Shown piece by piece: positions 15,698 through 26,280 of a stretch of DNA of 39,565 nt; position 1 is the stretch's first letter; every line of letters starts with the position of its first letter. A program made the translations under genes and the position numbers. The stretch is from Methanocalculaceae archaeon (GTDB lineage: Archaea; Halobacteriota; Methanomicrobia; Methanomicrobiales; Methanocorpusculaceae). The stretch is from contig JAISHD010000039.1 of the NCBI GenBank assembly GCA_031262705.1, positions 1 to 39,565 of the forward strand, given 5' to 3'. The notes beneath the pieces were generated by a model, which worked only from the letters and a program-made list of their open reading frames with translations, made no database searches and was not told the DNA's origin.

Positions 15698-17196
<1,499 letters not shown>

Positions 17197-17200
<4 letters not shown>

Positions 17201-18942
17201 TTCACCACCACAAGCACGTCGCCGCTCTGGACGACCGCACCGTTCTCCACAAAGATCTCCGTAACCGTTCCGTCAACCGGACTGACCACCGGATTTTCCA
17301 TCTTCATGGCTTCCAGTACCAGGAGAGTATCGCCCGCGGAGACTTTCTGGCCCATCTGCACCTTAATATCGAGCACCATTCCCTGAATACTGCTCTTCAC
17401 GCCTCCCGGCACATCTCCGTGCGGCGTCTGGCGCCTGCCCGGCTCGGAACTTCCTGCGGCAACCGATTCTCCCTCAACGGAAAGAATCCTGACCCTGAAC
17501 ACCTCGCCGTCAACCTCGACCTCCATCGAACGGGGAATGTCGATGTCAACCGGTGCCGCTGCTGCCGCCTCTGTCGCGGGGGCTGCTTCCGGCAGCGGCT
17601 CTGCCTTCTTCTCACCTCTCAGGAATGCCGGGGCAATTGCCGGGTAGAGGATGTACGTCAGGACATCCTCTTCCTTTCTGATCAGATCCTGGCCTTCGGC
17701 ATCGGTTTTCATCTTATCGTAGATAGGGCCGAGTGTGTCCGCCGGACGACAGGTGATCCGCTCCTCATCGCCGATGATCGAGGCAACCAGTGCTTCATCC
17801 AGCAATGCCGGGGTTTTTCCGTACATGCCTTTCAGATAATCGCGGGCCTCGTTGGTCACCGTCTTGTAGCGGCCGCCCATCAGGACATTGAGAACCGCCT
17901 GGGTTCCGACGATCTGCGATGTCGGGGTCACGAGCGGCGGATAGCCGAGATCCTTTCTGACCGCCGGAATCTCTTTGAGCACCTCATCCATCTTGTCGAG
18001 AGCGCCCTGCTCCTTGAGCTGGGAGACAAGGTTTGAGATCATGCCGCCCGGAAGCTGATAGATCAGCACATCGCTGTCGATCCGGATTGAGATCGGATCG
18101 ATCAGGCAGTCGTATTTGCATCTGACTGCTGATGCGGCATTCTTGATGTCGCGGAGCGTGGTCAGTTTGATTCCTGTGTCGCGTTTCGTGCCGACAAGGG
18201 ATGCAACGATACTTTCCGTCGCGGGCTGGGACGTTCCGCCGGCAAACGGCGACATGGCGGTATCGAGAATATCAACACCCGCTTCAATTGCCGCCTGATA
18301 GCTCATCGGTGCAATACCGCTGGTTGAGTGGGTGTGCAGACACACGGGAATATCGATCCGTTTTTTGATGCCGGTGATTAAGGAGCGGGTGGCCTCGGGC
18401 ATAATGAGTCCTGCCATATCCTTAATGCAGATAGAGTTGCAGCCAAGGTTGTACAGCTCCTCGGCCATTTCGATGAACCCGTCCGTACTGTGGACCGGGC
18501 TTGTCGTGTAGCTGATCGTTCCCTGCAGATGTTTTCCTTCATTCTGCACCGCAGTCATTGAGCGCTTCATATTGCGGATATCGTTGAGCGCATCAAACAC
18601 ACGGAAGACATCGACCCCGTTTGCAGCGGCGGCTCCGATGAACTTGTCGACCACGTCATCGGGATAATGTTTGTAGCCGACAAGGTTCTGGCCGCGGAGC
18701 AGCATCTGGATAGGTGTCTTGACAAAGATCGTCTTGAGATCCCGCAGGCGTTCCCATGGATCGTCGTTCAGATACCGAATACAGGTGTCAAACGTTGCCC
18801 CTCCCCATGCTTCGACGGACCAGAAGCCCGCCTTCTCCATCGCGGATGCGAGTTCGAGCATATCTTCGGTACGCATCCGTGTTGCGGCAAGCGACTGGTG
18901 TGCATCCCGAAGGGTTGTATCAGTAATATTGAGCTTTGTCAT
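17197..18942 (-). CDS. pycB: Pyruvate carboxylase subunit B (carboxyltransferase plus biotinyl domain)
   Basis: TTLRDAHQSLAATRMRTEDM; biotinyl motif LEAMKMENPV. Confidence 0.93.
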
Positions 18943-19075: not shown

Positions 19076-19720
19076 CTATACGGGGATTGCCGCAAGGAAA
19101 ACAGCCGCAGCACAAACCCCTGCGGTGCAGAGTATGAGGATATCAGTGCCGGACGGAGCGAATACCGGGACATAGATTCCTCCGGTGAGGTAGCCTCTGC
19201 GTGCGAGGTGTGCTCCGACATGGTTTGCACGGGCAAGCGAGAGAAAAAGAAGTCCTGTTGCGAGCGGCGGCAGTGTTTTGCAGGAGAGTTTCTGTCCTTT
19301 GATCCGCAGGGCATGTTTTATATGGGCGAGGTCATCGGAGATGCCGGAGAAAAACTGCATGGAGAGTTCTGCGGCAAGACCGAGATCGAATCCGGTTTTT
19401 CTGCCGAGTGCCCAGACACCGAGGTCAAGGAACTCGCCGGGTTTTTGTGCGGCACCGAGCCAGAATGCGAAAGCAAGAATGACAACGATCTTTGCAGCAT
19501 ACAGTCCTCCTTCTTCTCCGGTAAGAGAGAGAATGAGTCCCGGAAATCCGGCGGCAAGGATTGTCACGGGAACAAAAAGTTTCCACGAGATGCGGCTGAA
19601 CGTTTCCTTTGCGCAGAAAAAGATCCAGCAGACCGCCGCAAAGAGTGTCCCGAGACCTCCGGTGAATGCGGCGAGAGACAGGAGGGTTACGACCGCAAGA
19701 CGGATGCGCACGTCACTCAT
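19076..19720 (-). CDS. ECF transporter transmembrane T component (BioN/CbiQ-like)
   Basis: Start placed at MSDVRIRLAVVTLL; CbiQ-like ALRIKGQ and LARRGY segments; next to two ABC ATPases and bioY. Confidence 0.8.
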   Translation of the reverse strand: MSDVRIRLAVVTLLSLAAFTGGLGTLFAAVCWIFFCAKETFSRISWKLFVPVTILAAGFPGLILSLTGEEGGLYAAKIVVILAFAFWLGAAQKPGEFLDLGVWALGRKTGFDLGLAAELSMQFFSGISDDLAHIKHALRIKGQKLSCKTLPPLATGLLFLSLARANHVGAHLARRGYLTGGIYVPVFAPSGTDILILCTAGVCAAAVFLAAIPV

Positions 19721-20279
19721 GGTGCAGTTCCCCTTCCCTGATTGTCCAGTGTTCTGCTGATGCCGGAACGAACTCGGTTTCATGGGAAAAGACGAGGGTG
19801 ATGCCGGAACGCTGTTCCAGAAGTCTGGTGAGAACCGGCTTTGCGCATCGATCCAGTGAGGCATACGGTTCGTCGAGCAGCAGGAGATCACTTTCGCGTG
19901 CGAGAATGCAGGCGAGTTCCAGCCGCCGCAGTTCGCCGCGGGATAAGGTGAAGGGATCGCGGTCGGAAGGCACGACGTTCAGAAGTGCAAACGGTTCTTC
20001 GGTTCCGGTGACGTTCCATGAGGCGATCTCCCCGGCTACGGTGGTACCGGTTATCTGATACTCAGGGAACTGCATCAGAAGAAGCGGTGTTCCTTTGCAT
20101 CCTTCATACCGGATATCTCCCGCATCCGGAGAGAGAAGGCCTGCGGCAGCGAGTGCGATCGTGGATTTACCGGTACCGATTCGTCCTGAGATGAGATGAA
20201 CTCCGCGGGAGAACACCACATCTGCGGCAAGAGTGAACTCATCCCGCCGGAACCTGACTGCATCGAAGATGAGGTTCAC
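19713..20279 (-). CDS. ECF transporter ATPase
   Basis: Walker A GRIGTGKST, LSRGELRRLELA, LLLLDEPYASLD; start trimmed to GTG near 20279. Confidence 0.88.
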   Translation of the reverse strand: MNLIFDAVRFRRDEFTLAADVVFSRGVHLISGRIGTGKSTIALAAAGLLSPDAGDIRYEGCKGTPLLLMQFPEYQITGTTVAGEIASWNVTGTEEPFALLNVVPSDRDPFTLSRGELRRLELACILARESDLLLLDEPYASLDRCAKPVLTRLLEQRSGITLVFSHETEFVPASAEHWTIREGELHHE

Positions 20280-20875
20280 GGATTCTCCACCTTGCCGTGT
20301 GCAAGTACGATCTTTTGATCCGTGTTCTCCCAAATTCTGTGGGAGTGCGTGCTCCACAGTACATGCGAACAGCCGGAGTCCCGGATTTTCTGGAACAGTT
20401 CGTCGGCGGTTTCCGGGTCGAGGTGTGAGTCCGGTTCATCCAGAACGAGCAGTACCGGGTGTGCCGCGAGTGCTGTTGCGACTCCGACGAGCATCTTCTC
20501 GCCGCCGGACAGTGTCCGGCATTCCCGGTTCAGCAGATGCGTGATGCCGAACCGGTCTGTTGCCTCGGCGACATCCTCGTCAATTTCGGCAGGTTCGCGG
20601 TGAGCGAACCGCAGAGGCGATGCGATCTCATCACGCACCACCGAAAAGATCAGATGCCGGTCGGGGAACTCGGCGACGTACCCTGCTTCACACTCACGGG
20701 GCGGTGCATCGTCAATGGTAATCGTTCCGGATTCCGGCAGGTTCATGCCTGCGGCGACGCGGAGCAGGGTGGTCTTTCCTGCTCCATTGTCTCCGGTTAC
20801 AGCTGTGATTCCCTGTGGTATAGTGAGACGCGGGATATCCAGAATCCCGCATCTGAGATCGGTAATGGATATCAT
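20276..20875 (-). CDS. ECF transporter ATPase
   Basis: Walker A GDNGAGKTT, LSGGEKMLVGVA, LLVLDEPDSHLD. Confidence 0.9.
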   Translation of the reverse strand: MISITDLRCGILDIPRLTIPQGITAVTGDNGAGKTTLLRVAAGMNLPESGTITIDDAPPRECEAGYVAEFPDRHLIFSVVRDEIASPLRFAHREPAEIDEDVAEATDRFGITHLLNRECRTLSGGEKMLVGVATALAAHPVLLVLDEPDSHLDPETADELFQKIRDSGCSHVLWSTHSHRIWENTDQKIVLAHGKVENP

Positions 20876-21402
20876 AGGAGTTCTGTTCCGGTTCTGCGCA
20901 GCCGGAGAACTATTGCCTCAATGACCACGGATTTGATGATGTCGCCTATCACAAACGGGACAACGCAGGCGATAACTGCGGCGGCGGGTGAAGCTCCGGT
21001 TGAGATCATGAACCATCCCGCCGCAAAGGCATATGCTCCGATCCCGAACGCTGCAAGCGCGAGAATGTCAAACCGCATGGATTGTTTCTCAAACAGCAGT
21101 CCTGCGACGGCGGACATCACGAAAAACCCGATCAGAAATCCTCCTGTAGGCCCGAGAAGAATGCCGATTCCTGCTGTTCCGTTGTGGAAAATTGGCAGTC
21201 CGAGTGTTCCAAGCAGTACATACAGCCCGACCGGAATCACTGCATACCGCTTCATCACGGCTGCGGCAAGCAGCATGAAAAAATTCTGCATCGTAAACGG
21301 AATCATCAGAATCGGAATGGAAATCCATCCGCCGACTGCAATGAGGGCAACAAAGATCGCTGATGCGGCGAGTAATCGTGATCGTTTTTCATCCCCGTAC
21401 AT
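20872..21402 (-). CDS. bioY: BioY biotin transporter S component
   Basis: PFTMQNFFMLLAAAV, GLPIFHNGTAGIGILLGPTGGFLIGF. Confidence 0.93.
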   Translation of the reverse strand: MYGDEKRSRLLAASAIFVALIAVGGWISIPILMIPFTMQNFFMLLAAAVMKRYAVIPVGLYVLLGTLGLPIFHNGTAGIGILLGPTGGFLIGFFVMSAVAGLLFEKQSMRFDILALAAFGIGAYAFAAGWFMISTGASPAAAVIACVVPFVIGDIIKSVVIEAIVLRLRRTGTELL

Positions 21403-21404
21403 AA

Positions 21405-21436
21405 TTGTAAACTATTTATTTCTCTCTGGTAAACAA
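21405..21436. promoter_or_regulatory. Candidate BirA operator in the bioY-bioB divergent promoter
   Basis: TTGTAAAC-N16-GTAAACAA; half sites match 6/8 as inverted repeat; resembles known BirA site architecture. Confidence 0.55.
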
Positions 21437-21454
21437 TAAGGGTGCTGGTTGGAA

Positions 21455-22435
21455 ATGGAACTGATACCAATATTCAAAGAAAAAGTCCTCGGAGGCGGAA
21501 TGCTGACGCGGGATGAGGCGCTGCTTCTTGCAGAGGAAGATACAAACAGGCTTGCGGCTGCGGCAGATGAGATACGCAAACATTTCTGCGGAGATATATT
21601 TGATCTCTGTACCATCATCAACGGAAAAAACGGTGGCTGCACCGAGGACTGTATCTACTGTGCCCAGTCGATGCATCATGCTGCCGCCGCCGCTCCGTCT
21701 CCTGTCGCGGACATCAGCCGATATCTCCCGCTGATCGCCGAAAATTATTCTTCGGGGGCAGTCCGATGTGGTATTGTTACTTCAGGGAGAATGCTGACCG
21801 GTGAGGAGCTTGCAGGTCTGCTGGAACAGTACCGTCTGCTTCACCAGAGCTGCGGCATCTCCTTATGCGCCTCGCATGGTCTTTTAACAGAGCAGCAGCT
21901 TGCGCATCTGAAAGGTGCCGGCGTTGTCCGATATCATGCGAATCTGGAAACATCCCGCAGATATTTTCCGCAGATCTGTACGACCCATACCTACGATGAC
22001 AAAATTGCGGTGATCAAAGCGGCGCAGTGTGCCGGACTTGAGGTCTGCAGCGGCGGTATCTTCGGCCTCGGCGAAACGATTGAGGATCGCATCGATATGG
22101 CTCTTGACCTTCGGGCGCTTGGGATTCGTTCGGTTCCGATCAACATCCTTACTCCCATCCCGGGCACGCCGCTTGAGAATGCCGTCCCCCTCTCCTGTTC
22201 CGAGGTGAAGCGGATCGTTGCCCTCTACCGGTTCCTTCTGCCGGATGCATATCTCCGGCTTGCAGGCGGACGGGGGCTGCTGCCGGATCGGGGATGTGAG
22301 TTGTTCCTGTCCGGCGCAAATGCCGCAATCTCCGGCGATATGCTGACGACTGCGGGTGTTTCGCTACGGGATGATCAGGAAATGATCCGTGATCTCGGGT
22401 TTGTCACAGACGAAAAAAAGTTATTTAGAGGATGA
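21455..22435 (+). CDS. bioB: Biotin synthase
   Basis: Radical SAM GCTEDCIYCAQS, IVTSGR, LCASHGLL, VCSGGIFGLGET. Confidence 0.92.
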   Translation: MELIPIFKEKVLGGGMLTRDEALLLAEEDTNRLAAAADEIRKHFCGDIFDLCTIINGKNGGCTEDCIYCAQSMHHAAAAAPSPVADISRYLPLIAENYSSGAVRCGIVTSGRMLTGEELAGLLEQYRLLHQSCGISLCASHGLLTEQQLAHLKGAGVVRYHANLETSRRYFPQICTTHTYDDKIAVIKAAQCAGLEVCSGGIFGLGETIEDRIDMALDLRALGIRSVPINILTPIPGTPLENAVPLSCSEVKRIVALYRFLLPDAYLRLAGGRGLLPDRGCELFLSGANAAISGDMLTTAGVSLRDDQEMIRDLGFVTDEKKLFRG

Positions 22436-23417
22436 AGCAGTCGCCTGCAATCACGCGTTCGACCTCACCACCGTCACGGTGCACCAGCAGTGCCCCGTGC
22501 TCATCAATATCGATTGCCTCGCCGTCGAAGCTCTCCTTCATCGTCCGGATACGGACGCGGCGGTGGAGTGTGTAGGACAGACTGCGCCATTCGCGGAATA
22601 AGGGTTCTGTCTCACCCGCCAGTACCATCTGATACCGGCGCTCAAACTCTTTCAGGAACTTTGCGAAGAACTGCGCCCGTTCCACTTCATGGCCGAGTTC
22701 GTCGGAGATGGAGGTGACAAGTTTTGAGATGTTCGGCATCGTCCGCTCAACCGAGACGTTCACATCAATGCCGATACCGATCAGGCAGTAGCGGAGAATA
22801 TCTTCATCCGCTGCAAGTTCAATCGTCATGCCTGCAACTTTTTTGTCGCCGATGAGCACATCGTTCGGCCATTTGATCAGGGCTGACAGTCCGAACTCGT
22901 GACGGATTGCCCGGGCAAGGGCAAGAGATCCGGCCATCATGATGCTGAAGGTCTGATCGACGTTGAGCTTTGGCATGACCACAATCGTTGCCCAGATGCC
23001 GCCTTCCGGACTCATCCAGACGCGGTTCATTCTGCCGAGACCGCCGGTCTGCTGTTCTGCGATCAGAACCGTTCCCGGCTGAACTTCGTCGCCGACCTCG
23101 TGCAGCATCTGGCGGGCGAGTGCATTTGTTGAGGGAACCTGCTCAAAGTGGTGTATCTCCTGACCGATGATCTGCGTCTTGAGGAATCGCTTGACTTCGT
23201 ACGGAATCAGAAGCCAGGTTCGCTTCTGGAGTGCATAGCCTGTCTTCGGTGATGCATCAATGCAGTATCCGACCTCCCGCAGCAGGTTTACATATTTCCA
23301 TACGGCGGTACGGGTAATCCCAAGGCGTTCGCTGATAACCTCTCCGGGCACCGGATTGCCGATGCCAGCTTCGTCAAGGATTCGCAGAACATCAAATATT
23401 GTCTGTGTCATGACCAC
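22425..23417 (-). CDS. birA: Bifunctional biotin operon repressor / biotin--protein ligase
   Basis: N-terminal HTH (ISERLGITRTAVWKYVNLLREVGY); ligase GGLGRMNRVWMSPEGGIW and KWPNDVLI. Confidence 0.93.
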   Translation of the reverse strand: MVMTQTIFDVLRILDEAGIGNPVPGEVISERLGITRTAVWKYVNLLREVGYCIDASPKTGYALQKRTWLLIPYEVKRFLKTQIIGQEIHHFEQVPSTNALARQMLHEVGDEVQPGTVLIAEQQTGGLGRMNRVWMSPEGGIWATIVVMPKLNVDQTFSIMMAGSLALARAIRHEFGLSALIKWPNDVLIGDKKVAGMTIELAADEDILRYCLIGIGIDVNVSVERTMPNISKLVTSISDELGHEVERAQFFAKFLKEFERRYQMVLAGETEPLFREWRSLSYTLHRRVRIRTMKESFDGEAIDIDEHGALLVHRDGGEVERVIAGDCFIL

Positions 23418-23559: not shown

Positions 23560-24153
23560 TCAGAACCGGACTTCCGCATCAGCGGCGCCGAACTGTTTCA
23601 GAAACGCATCGGACGGATACTCATGCGTACTTGCAAGCAAAAGCGTCCCCTCCCCGACGGGACACTCAACAAACACCGGAAAACCGTTCTCCGCAACCGC
23701 TATAGGTTTTCCCGGACACTTCACAAACCAGCCGTCGGTTGCAAATTTTTCCGTGTCATATCCGTCGAAGAGTGATTTCCACGGAGATGATGCGTCAATA
23801 TCGAGTTTATGCTCGGCAAACCCGAAGTGATACTCCACCTCGATCGGAAGCCAGTCGTAGGGGTTGCCGGTCTTTGCCGGGTCTGCCGCTCCGTACACGA
23901 ACAGTCTTCCGCCATCCTCAAGATACTCCTCAATGCGACCGGAAACGGCACGAAGTGCCGGAAGCAGCTTTGAATACTGGAGATTCCCAAAACCGGTCGG
24001 AATGATAACCCCGGTATAGCGGCCTTTGTAAAACGGTGCTGCCAGCATCAGCGGCGTCACCGCCTCGCAGTAGCCGCACGCATCCTCGACCAGCCGGTGG
24101 AACATCATCCTGCTGTCCCAGAAGACTGCGATGTGACCCTGTGATCCCGTCAT
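23560..24153 (-). CDS. Conserved hypothetical, possible class I glutamine amidotransferase-like/ThuA-like fold
   Basis: ORF overlaps rtcB stop by 4 nt; GVIIPTGFGNLQYS...LEDGGRLFVYG...PVGEGTLLLASTHEYPS pattern. Confidence 0.6.
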   Translation of the reverse strand: MTGSQGHIAVFWDSRMMFHRLVEDACGYCEAVTPLMLAAPFYKGRYTGVIIPTGFGNLQYSKLLPALRAVSGRIEEYLEDGGRLFVYGAADPAKTGNPYDWLPIEVEYHFGFAEHKLDIDASSPWKSLFDGYDTEKFATDGWFVKCPGKPIAVAENGFPVFVECPVGEGTLLLASTHEYPSDAFLKQFGAADAEVRF

Positions 24154-25592
24154 CCTTTAATCACCCCGAGCGGCCGGAGCCGGGCAACAATCCGTGAAAT
24201 TCCTGCGTCATGCACCACCTGCACCACCTCGCTGCTCGGCTTGTACACATCGGGCGCTTCCTCTGCAATTGCCGCCGCATTCGGTGCACGGACAATAATG
24301 CCGCGTTTTGCAAGATCACTCGCGACCGCCGCACCGGTCAGGCTCCGTTTCGCAGACGATCTGCTCTGCACCCGGCCTGCTCCGTGACAGGTACTGCCGA
24401 ACGTCCGCTTCATCGCAGTCGTCGTTCCTGCAAGCAGGTACGATGACGTTCCCATGCTGCCCGGGATAATCACCGGCTGTCCTGCATCCCGGAACTCCTG
24501 CACAATCTCGGATCGACCCGGGCCGAAGGCACGGGTTGCCCCTTTGCGGTGGACGCAGACGCGGCTGCGGCCTGCCGCCGCATCTGCGGCCTCGTGTTCC
24601 TCCCACTTCGCCACATTGTGGGCAACATCATACACGAGCGGCATCTCCTCATAGGCAATGCCGAACTTTTTCACCAGCAGCTCACGAACCAGATGCGTAA
24701 TGATCTGGCGGTTTGCCCAGGCATAGTTTGCGGAGGCTGCCATCGCACCAAAGTATGCCTCGCCTTCCGGCGAGTGCAGGGGAGCGCAGGCAAGCTGTCG
24801 GTCGGGCAGATCGATGTTGTACTTCTTCACCGCCTCTTCCAGCACTTTCAGGTGATCCGTACAGACCTGATGGCCGAGTCCCCGCGACCCGCAGTGGATC
24901 ATCACACAGATCTGGCCTTCGGCTACACCGAAGGTCTTCGCGGTTGCAGGGTCAGCGATCTCATCAATCGCCTGCACCTCAAGGAAGTGGTTGCCGGAAC
25001 CGAGCGTCCCGCACTGGGGAATGCCTCGTACCCGGGATTTTTTGCTGACGAACTCAAGCTCCGCCCCGGGCATTGCACCTCTCTCTTCACACCGGCGGAC
25101 ATCTCCCTCCATACCGTATCCCAGCTCCACCGCGTTCGCCGCACCGTCTGTGAGCATATTGGAAAGATCATGCTGGCTGAGCCGCACCGGACTTTTCGAA
25201 CCGACTCCGGTAGGCACCGTTGCAAACAGATCCTCAATGAGTCCTTTCATATCGGGAATATCTGCCGCTGTCAGCGCTGTCGTGATCATCCGAACCCCGC
25301 AGTTGATGTCAAATCCGACGCCGCCCGGAGAAATTACTCCCTCGTCCTCGTCAAACGCGGCAACTCCGCCGATGGGAAACCCGTAACCCCAGTGAATGTC
25401 GGGCATGCCAAGCGAACAACGGAGGATGCCGGGCAGTGTTGCAACGTTTGCAAGCTGGGTCAGCGCCCCCTCCTCAAGTCCCTCGGCAAGCCGGTGCGAG
25501 AGGAAAAACGTTCCCGGAACCCGCATCCCGGAAACAAAACCCTGGGGGATCTCCCACTCGGTATCTGAAATATTTCGTATCTGATCGTTCAT
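24150..25592 (-). CDS. rtcB: RNA-splicing ligase RtcB
   Basis: GVGFDINCGVR, CGTLGSGNHFLEVQ, MIHCGSRGLGHQV. Confidence 0.96.
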   Translation of the reverse strand: MNDQIRNISDTEWEIPQGFVSGMRVPGTFFLSHRLAEGLEEGALTQLANVATLPGILRCSLGMPDIHWGYGFPIGGVAAFDEDEGVISPGGVGFDINCGVRMITTALTAADIPDMKGLIEDLFATVPTGVGSKSPVRLSQHDLSNMLTDGAANAVELGYGMEGDVRRCEERGAMPGAELEFVSKKSRVRGIPQCGTLGSGNHFLEVQAIDEIADPATAKTFGVAEGQICVMIHCGSRGLGHQVCTDHLKVLEEAVKKYNIDLPDRQLACAPLHSPEGEAYFGAMAASANYAWANRQIITHLVRELLVKKFGIAYEEMPLVYDVAHNVAKWEEHEAADAAAGRSRVCVHRKGATRAFGPGRSEIVQEFRDAGQPVIIPGSMGTSSYLLAGTTTAMKRTFGSTCHGAGRVQSRSSAKRSLTGAAVASDLAKRGIIVRAPNAAAIAEEAPDVYKPSSEVVQVVHDAGISRIVARLRPLGVIKG

Positions 25593-25595
25593 GGT

Positions 25596-26009
25596 TTAGA
25601 TATCAAAGATGATGATGAGTTCATAGCCTGCAGCGGTTTTTGTGAACGAGATACCTGAGTAGGAGATGCCTTTCACTCCGATACCTCCTGCATGTTTTGT
25701 TCGGTCGAATAAAACACCCGACACGGTCCCGCAGACGGCGTTGCCGTCTGCGGCAAGATCAAAGGAGACCGGCACCAGATACTCAGTCTCGGTGAGAAAC
25801 AGCAGCTCTGACAGAAAGTCTACGATTTTCTCCTCCGCATCCTTCCCTTCTGCTTCGATGAGGAAGGACACGGTTGCCGCATCTCTCTGATACTCGCCGT
25901 ACAACGTCTCTGCAAGTGCAAATCCGCTTTCGGCAAACAGTTCCGGAAGTGTCGGTGCGGTAATTCTCATCCGTACATCGGCGGTGTGTTCCAGTTCCTC
26001 AAAGGTCAT
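25596..26009 (-). CDS. Archease
   Basis: FEELEHTADVRMRI N-terminus, VKGISYSGISF; directly upstream of rtcB. Confidence 0.92.
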   Translation of the reverse strand: MTFEELEHTADVRMRITAPTLPELFAESGFALAETLYGEYQRDAATVSFLIEAEGKDAEEKIVDFLSELLFLTETEYLVPVSFDLAADGNAVCGTVSGVLFDRTKHAGGIGVKGISYSGISFTKTAAGYELIIIFDI

Positions 26010-26280
26010 CGTTTTCGGTGTACAGAATCCTTGGAACAAGCCGCATACTGATCTCGGTAATCCAGGGTAGCTGATACTGGGAGACGAAGATCAGATGACT
26101 GCCTGCCTTGATGGGAATGTCGCTTGGTTTCGCCGGATTGACTTTGACCGGCATCAGAACCGGACCACTGCACGAGGTACTGATCCGGAAATCCCCGCCG
26201 CGTTTGTCCATGTAGGCGATCACGTCTTCAGTGACCGTGACGGGAGAGAGAGGGCGGGGACCGCCCTGTTGTGTATCCAT
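25999..26280 (-). CDS. Small conserved hypothetical protein in rtcB-archease operon
   Basis: 93 aa ORF overlapping the archease start. Confidence 0.6.
   Translation of the reverse strand: MDTQQGGPRPLSPVTVTEDVIAYMDKRGGDFRISTSCSGPVLMPVKVNPAKPSDIPIKAGSHLIFVSQYQLPWITEISMRLVPRILYTENDDL

Follow-up and report, generated by a model that had tools for sequence, protein, structure and literature searches.

The subject of this analysis is a 39,565-nucleotide (nt) stretch of DNA from a Methanocalculaceae archaeon (contig JAISHD010000039.1, forward strand; hereafter the window), and in particular a dyad at positions 21405-21436 that lies between two biotin genes. This dyad is predicted, with a probability of roughly 0.88, to be an operator for the biotin protein ligase BirA that serves both bioY and bioB, and the same kind of dyad was found at ppcA, the phosphoenolpyruvate (PEP) carboxylase gene, in related genera; PEP carboxylase needs no biotin and can stand in for their main biotin-dependent enzyme. 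The case was built on the sequence of the dyad, its conservation, its genome-wide target specificity and its co-variation with the helix-turn-helix (HTH) domain of BirA. The genome of the window is Methanocorpusculum-like, and the closest named genome found was Methanocorpusculum petauri. The features that carry the argument are the following:

21405-21413 and 21428-21436, no strand: predicted BirA operator with arms TTGTAAACT and GGTAAACAA around a 14-nt spacer (21414-21427), called from exact sequence, matrix score and conservation.
21413-21421, plus strand: putative bioB TATA box TATTTATTT, within the operator spacer.
21432-21439, minus strand: putative TATA-like element TTATTGTT of bioY, partly within the distal arm, its position inferred.
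20872-21402, minus strand: bioY, the biotin-binding S component of an energy-coupling factor (ECF) transporter (PF02632, 1.3e-31), with its ATG 3 nt from the operator.
21455-22435, plus strand: bioB, biotin synthase (TIGR00433, 5e-107).
22425-23411, minus strand: birA, a group II biotin protein ligase with N-terminal HTH (PF08279, PF03099, PF02237) and recognition helix ITRTAVWKYV.

The sequence TTGTAAAC-N16-GTAAACAA was present at 21405-21436 exactly as a preliminary description had claimed, and was the sole match without mismatches in the genome of the window; within the window, no second match appeared when up to three mismatches were allowed (0.06 expected). The same description had called it an inverted repeat, which holds for the arms and their spacing, while the repeat itself turned out to be imperfect: the right arm reversed reads TTGTTTAC and shares 6/8 positions with the left arm. 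A perfect palindrome TTGTAAAC-N-GTTTACAA was also searched for in the window and none was present. Written with 9-mer arms, the dyad becomes TTGTAAACT-N14-GGTAAACAA and matches 15/18 positions of the bacterial BirA consensus TTGTAAACC-[N14/15]-GGTTTACAA, which PMC545781 credits to Rodionov et al. (2002), including the spacing of 14 or 15 nt; the Geobacter form is TTGTcAACC-N14-aGTTgACAA (PMC545781). A weight matrix made from 50 operators, all from outside Methanocorpusculum, ranked the dyad first among all window positions with 9.6 bits against 3.5 bits for the runner-up, and the threshold (99.9% quantile of shuffled promoters) was 6.9 bits. This matrix scan had been proposed as a check on the operator-like reading, which it bears out.

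Searches of Pfam and NCBIfam confirmed the identities of the divergent genes bioY and bioB on either side of the dyad. The nearby birA, described beforehand as encoding an N-terminal HTH, does so: its product showed HTH_11 (PF08279), ligase (PF03099) and C-terminal (PF02237) domains, all over cut-off, which is the architecture of a group II biotin protein ligase. The NCBIfam repressor domain model TIGR00122 matched below its cut-off, and the nearest solved relative is the BirA of Staphylococcus aureus.

The second proposed check was a comparison of the intergenic region in relatives, with absent conservation named as the outcome that would speak against an operator; instead, half-sites were kept upstream of bioY across the order Methanomicrobiales. 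Several Methanocorpusculum genomes of sister species that are without bioB carried a perfect ATTGTTAACC-N14-GGTTAACAAT upstream of bioY, and in other genera ATCGTCAACC-N14/15-GGTTGACGAT occupied this place, its proximal arm at the ATG of bioY or across it. The Methanomicrobiales form TTGTCAACC agrees with the published BirA consensus, and in 54 aligned bioY promoters a T-rich TTTTTTA directly precedes the distal arm. In two genomes (G010 and G076), bioY was preceded by a tandem pair of exact dyads. One Methanocorpusculum subgroup (G118, G094, G098, G106, G138) had a divergent bioY (~50% identity) without operator, and birA located elsewhere in the genome.

Genome-wide pattern searches were then used to look at target specificity. 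The exact pattern GTYAACC-N14/15-GGTTRAC was found in 87/150 genomes of the order, and a reversed control pattern gave almost no matches in the 150 genomes. Among the matches listed, all 75 exact sites were located just upstream of bioY (62) or ppcA (13), and none elsewhere. BioY and BirA were present in 142/150 and 147/150 of the sampled order genomes, respectively, and BioB in 5/150. Outside the order, a phylum-wide sample yielded seven genomes with the exact pattern, six of them at bioY or bioB, and BirA-type half-sites were found at these two genes in other archaeal families. Autoregulation of birA was considered as well, and the birA upstream regions scanned held no convincing site; there was no symmetric dyad among 30 pycB loci.

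The presence of the operator follows the DNA-binding domain of BirA, with few independent contrasts. Operator-bearing genomes had the BirA recognition helix [ST]R[ST]AVWK or near it, and in operator-less genomes the helix was changed: PRSAVSHH, PGSSVAHH or PVSSVARH in genus g5, several forms in family f3, LSKSAVWK in G149, and no HTH at all in the BirA of G020 and G026. An intact HTH motif coincided with a bioY operator in 55 genomes and stood without one in 7, and a changed motif was found with an operator in 2 and without in 20 (Fisher p=1.5e-11, related genomes counted as independent). The corresponding tables, in the same order, were 17, 2, 1 and 11 for HTH and ppcA operator (p=1e-5) and 19, 1, 0 and 13 for bioY operator and ppcA operator (p=2e-8), kinship being ignored in both. 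A tree of the ligase domain contained four supported independent contrasts for the HTH/bioY table, about two of them informative, and two for the HTH/ppcA table; all informative contrasts ran in the expected direction. Within genera, G123 lost both the HTH motif and the operator, and its congener G037 has both; likewise G004, whose recognition-helix arginine is changed to glutamine, had weakened sites relative to its sister G010, with the spacer mostly shared and arm letters altered.

The 13 exact ppcA sites lay upstream of a gene of ~485 amino acids with the motif MSTQHPDN, which is the archaeal PEP carboxylase PF14010. A dyad above the shuffle threshold was present at this promoter in 27 of the 42 order genomes that have a PEP carboxylase gene and readable upstream DNA; these 27 fall in three family groups (f2, f5, f6), and 11 of the 15 genomes without the dyad belong to the single genus g5. 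The biotin-carrying subunit of pyruvate carboxylase, pycB, was present in all 41 of the 42 genomes that were searched (G027 was not in the search), and in 50/50 relatives when nine others were included. Since ppcA dyads and pycB co-occur, BirA probably switches oxaloacetate synthesis between a biotin-dependent and a biotin-free enzyme. I consider it a good bet that BirA in Methanomicrobiales acts as such a metabolic switch: biotin-loaded BirA would repress biotin uptake and PEP carboxylase, so that oxaloacetate would come from pyruvate carboxylase in times of ample biotin and from PEP carboxylase in times of shortage, and one Methanocorpusculum clade would instead have placed a bioB captured from bacteria under the operator. 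A search for PEP carboxylase in Methanocorpusculum genomes gave no match. Outside the order, scanned loci with PEP carboxylase matches showed no ppcA operator apart from one possible case (G169), where a strong dyad of 18.5 bits at 764-795 lies ~110 nt upstream of the match. In one genome outside the order, PEP carboxylase is directly preceded by a GTTAAC...GGTTAACAA repeat whose halves are 12 nt apart. Control of PEP carboxylase by BirA was unreported in the titles and abstracts that searches of an open-access library returned, a library in which subscription journals are mostly missing, and the ppcA link is for this reason called apparently new, within those titles and abstracts.

The proposed mechanism is modelled on BirA of Escherichia coli, S. 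aureus and Bacillus subtilis (PMC6391492, PMC4016012). With plentiful biotin, BirA loaded with biotinyl-AMP would dimerise, and the two HTH domains would bind the two arms. The operator would cover the bioB TATA box within its spacer together with the predicted TATA and start region of bioY; with predicted TATA boxes flanked or overlapped by the arms, bound BirA should keep TATA-binding protein and transcription factor B (TFB), or RNA polymerase, off both strands. With the two promoters blocked, biotin uptake (bioY-ecf) and the final step of its synthesis (bioB) would cease at the same time, and in related genera the same operator would also govern ppcA. Repression as the direction of control, like binding and its dependence on the ligand, is inferred, here by analogy and from position.

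The order in which the two promoters came under the operator can be approached through bioB. In a bioB tree, the Methanocorpusculum sequences formed one clade (support 100) amid bacterial sequences, and the gene looks to have been acquired from bacteria. A full biotin pathway behind it was considered and rejected: no match for bioA or bioD was above cut-off in the bioB-bearing genomes (bioF was not searched), and BioB therefore probably completes imported dethiobiotin. The spacer element TATTTATTT, a plausible bioB TATA box, was the same in M. petauri and in all five genomes that carry bioB, and in G114, which is without bioB, it was changed to TACTTGTTT with both dyad arms kept. G126 has no bioB, two TAG stops in bioY and a decayed distal arm. 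This series supports one operator for two promoters with bioY as the older client: bioY would be the ancestral target, and bioB would have arrived later, settling between the operator and birA and taking the operator over.

Several points weigh against the proposed operator. The distal arm in the window is degenerate, with the reversed 9-mer TTGTTTACC departing from the left arm at position 9 and, as two mismatches, at positions 5-6, and the TATA boxes and start sites are predictions. The Fisher values assume independence of kin genomes, the contrasts alone are not significant, and the HTH motif was defined only after the sequences were seen. In seven genomes (G077, G094, G098, G106, G118, G126, G136) the HTH motif is intact and bioY has no operator; four of these genomes (G094, G098, G106, G118) have bioY as a divergent copy distant from birA, and G082 has a 19/20 operator despite the changed helix SLTTVWK. 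The last case could be accounted for if the operator binder in Methanocorpusculum were not the neighbouring birA product but a second, bacterial-like BirA2 (C31:7413-8321 in the genome of the window), as the operator of G082 is good although its first BirA lost the helix arginine. Most Methanocorpusculum genomes searched have this second BirA, other genera have a single one, its HTH is intact (helix VSRSAVWK), and half-sites moved from GTCAACC to GTTAACC or GTTTACC in the BirA2-bearing genus. Nevertheless, genera with the ancestral BirA alone have the same operator in the same place, and the HTH of the ancestral BirA is intact in the window and close kin, which leaves BirA2 an unlikely binder, though one to be taken seriously.

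It is far less probable that the conserved letters are two back-to-back archaeal core promoters (TATA box and TFB-recognition element) with no operator role. The region is AT-rich with TATA-like elements on both strands, but symmetric arms and fixed spacing are kept without a divergent bioB and at ppcA, exact sites among the matches listed are solely at bioY or ppcA, and operator loss tracks the HTH of BirA. Imperfect arms in AT-rich intergenic DNA could also suggest a chance repeat; this is refuted by conservation of the dyad in relatives, quite apart from the low expectation in the window and the first rank given by an independent matrix, and has next to no probability left.

BirA operators, archaeal ones included, are already known. 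The predicted operator resembles the bacterial one in its arms, spacing, place upstream of biotin genes and HTH-bearing BirA, and differs in that the promoters are archaeal, in that a single site extends over both divergent core promoters and the start of bioY, and in that half-sites drift from GTCAACC in the order to GTTAACC and GTTTACC in the genus. Rodionov et al. (2002, Genome Res 12:1507) reportedly predicted archaeal BirA regulons. These share with the present one bioY as a target and a signal common to bacteria and archaea; a new order, the co-variation tests and ppcA as second target go beyond them. Methanomicrobiales are not known to have been sequenced by then. As in the expanded regulons of Desulfovibrionales, which include fabF, fabH and acpP (PMC5343134), BirA would govern more than biotin genes, but the extra target here is a biotin-independent bypass of a biotin enzyme rather than a gene of the same pathway. 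In Corynebacterium glutamicum, biotin affects pyruvate carboxylase versus PEP carboxylase according to the abstract (PMC11457263), and in that account the biotin level likewise sets which anaplerotic enzyme works; unlike here, the abstract describes no BirA operator at ppc. The result is a well-supported BirA regulon for a methanogen order, with the prediction that vitamin status decides the enzyme of CO2 fixation into oxaloacetate. That methanogens have PEP carboxylase alongside pyruvate carboxylase can thereby be tested as a regulated choice, and bioB illustrates how a bacterial newcomer could come under an archaeal operator already in place, the newcomer's TATA box lying within the spacer.

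Downstream of bioY follow two ATPases, a probable T component, and then pycB and pycA for biotin-dependent pyruvate carboxylase, all on the minus strand:

20276-20875, minus strand: ECF transporter ATPase adjoining bioY (PF00005; best NCBIfam match ECF_ATPase_1, under its cut-off).
19713-20279, minus strand: second ECF-type ATPase (PF00005; best NCBIfam match ECF_ATPase_2, under its cut-off).
19076-19723, minus strand: putative transporter T component, assigned by position, with no match in Pfam and NCBIfam searches; its place beside bioY is conserved in sister genomes.
17197-18942, minus strand: pycB, biotin-carrying pyruvate carboxylase subunit B (NF006761, 6e-253), whose product is a likely client of the ligase function of BirA.
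15698-17200, minus strand: pycA, biotin carboxylase subunit (NF006406, 5e-252).

Further along the window, the adjacent minus-strand genes at 24150-25592 and 25596-26039 resemble RtcB RNA ligase and archease.
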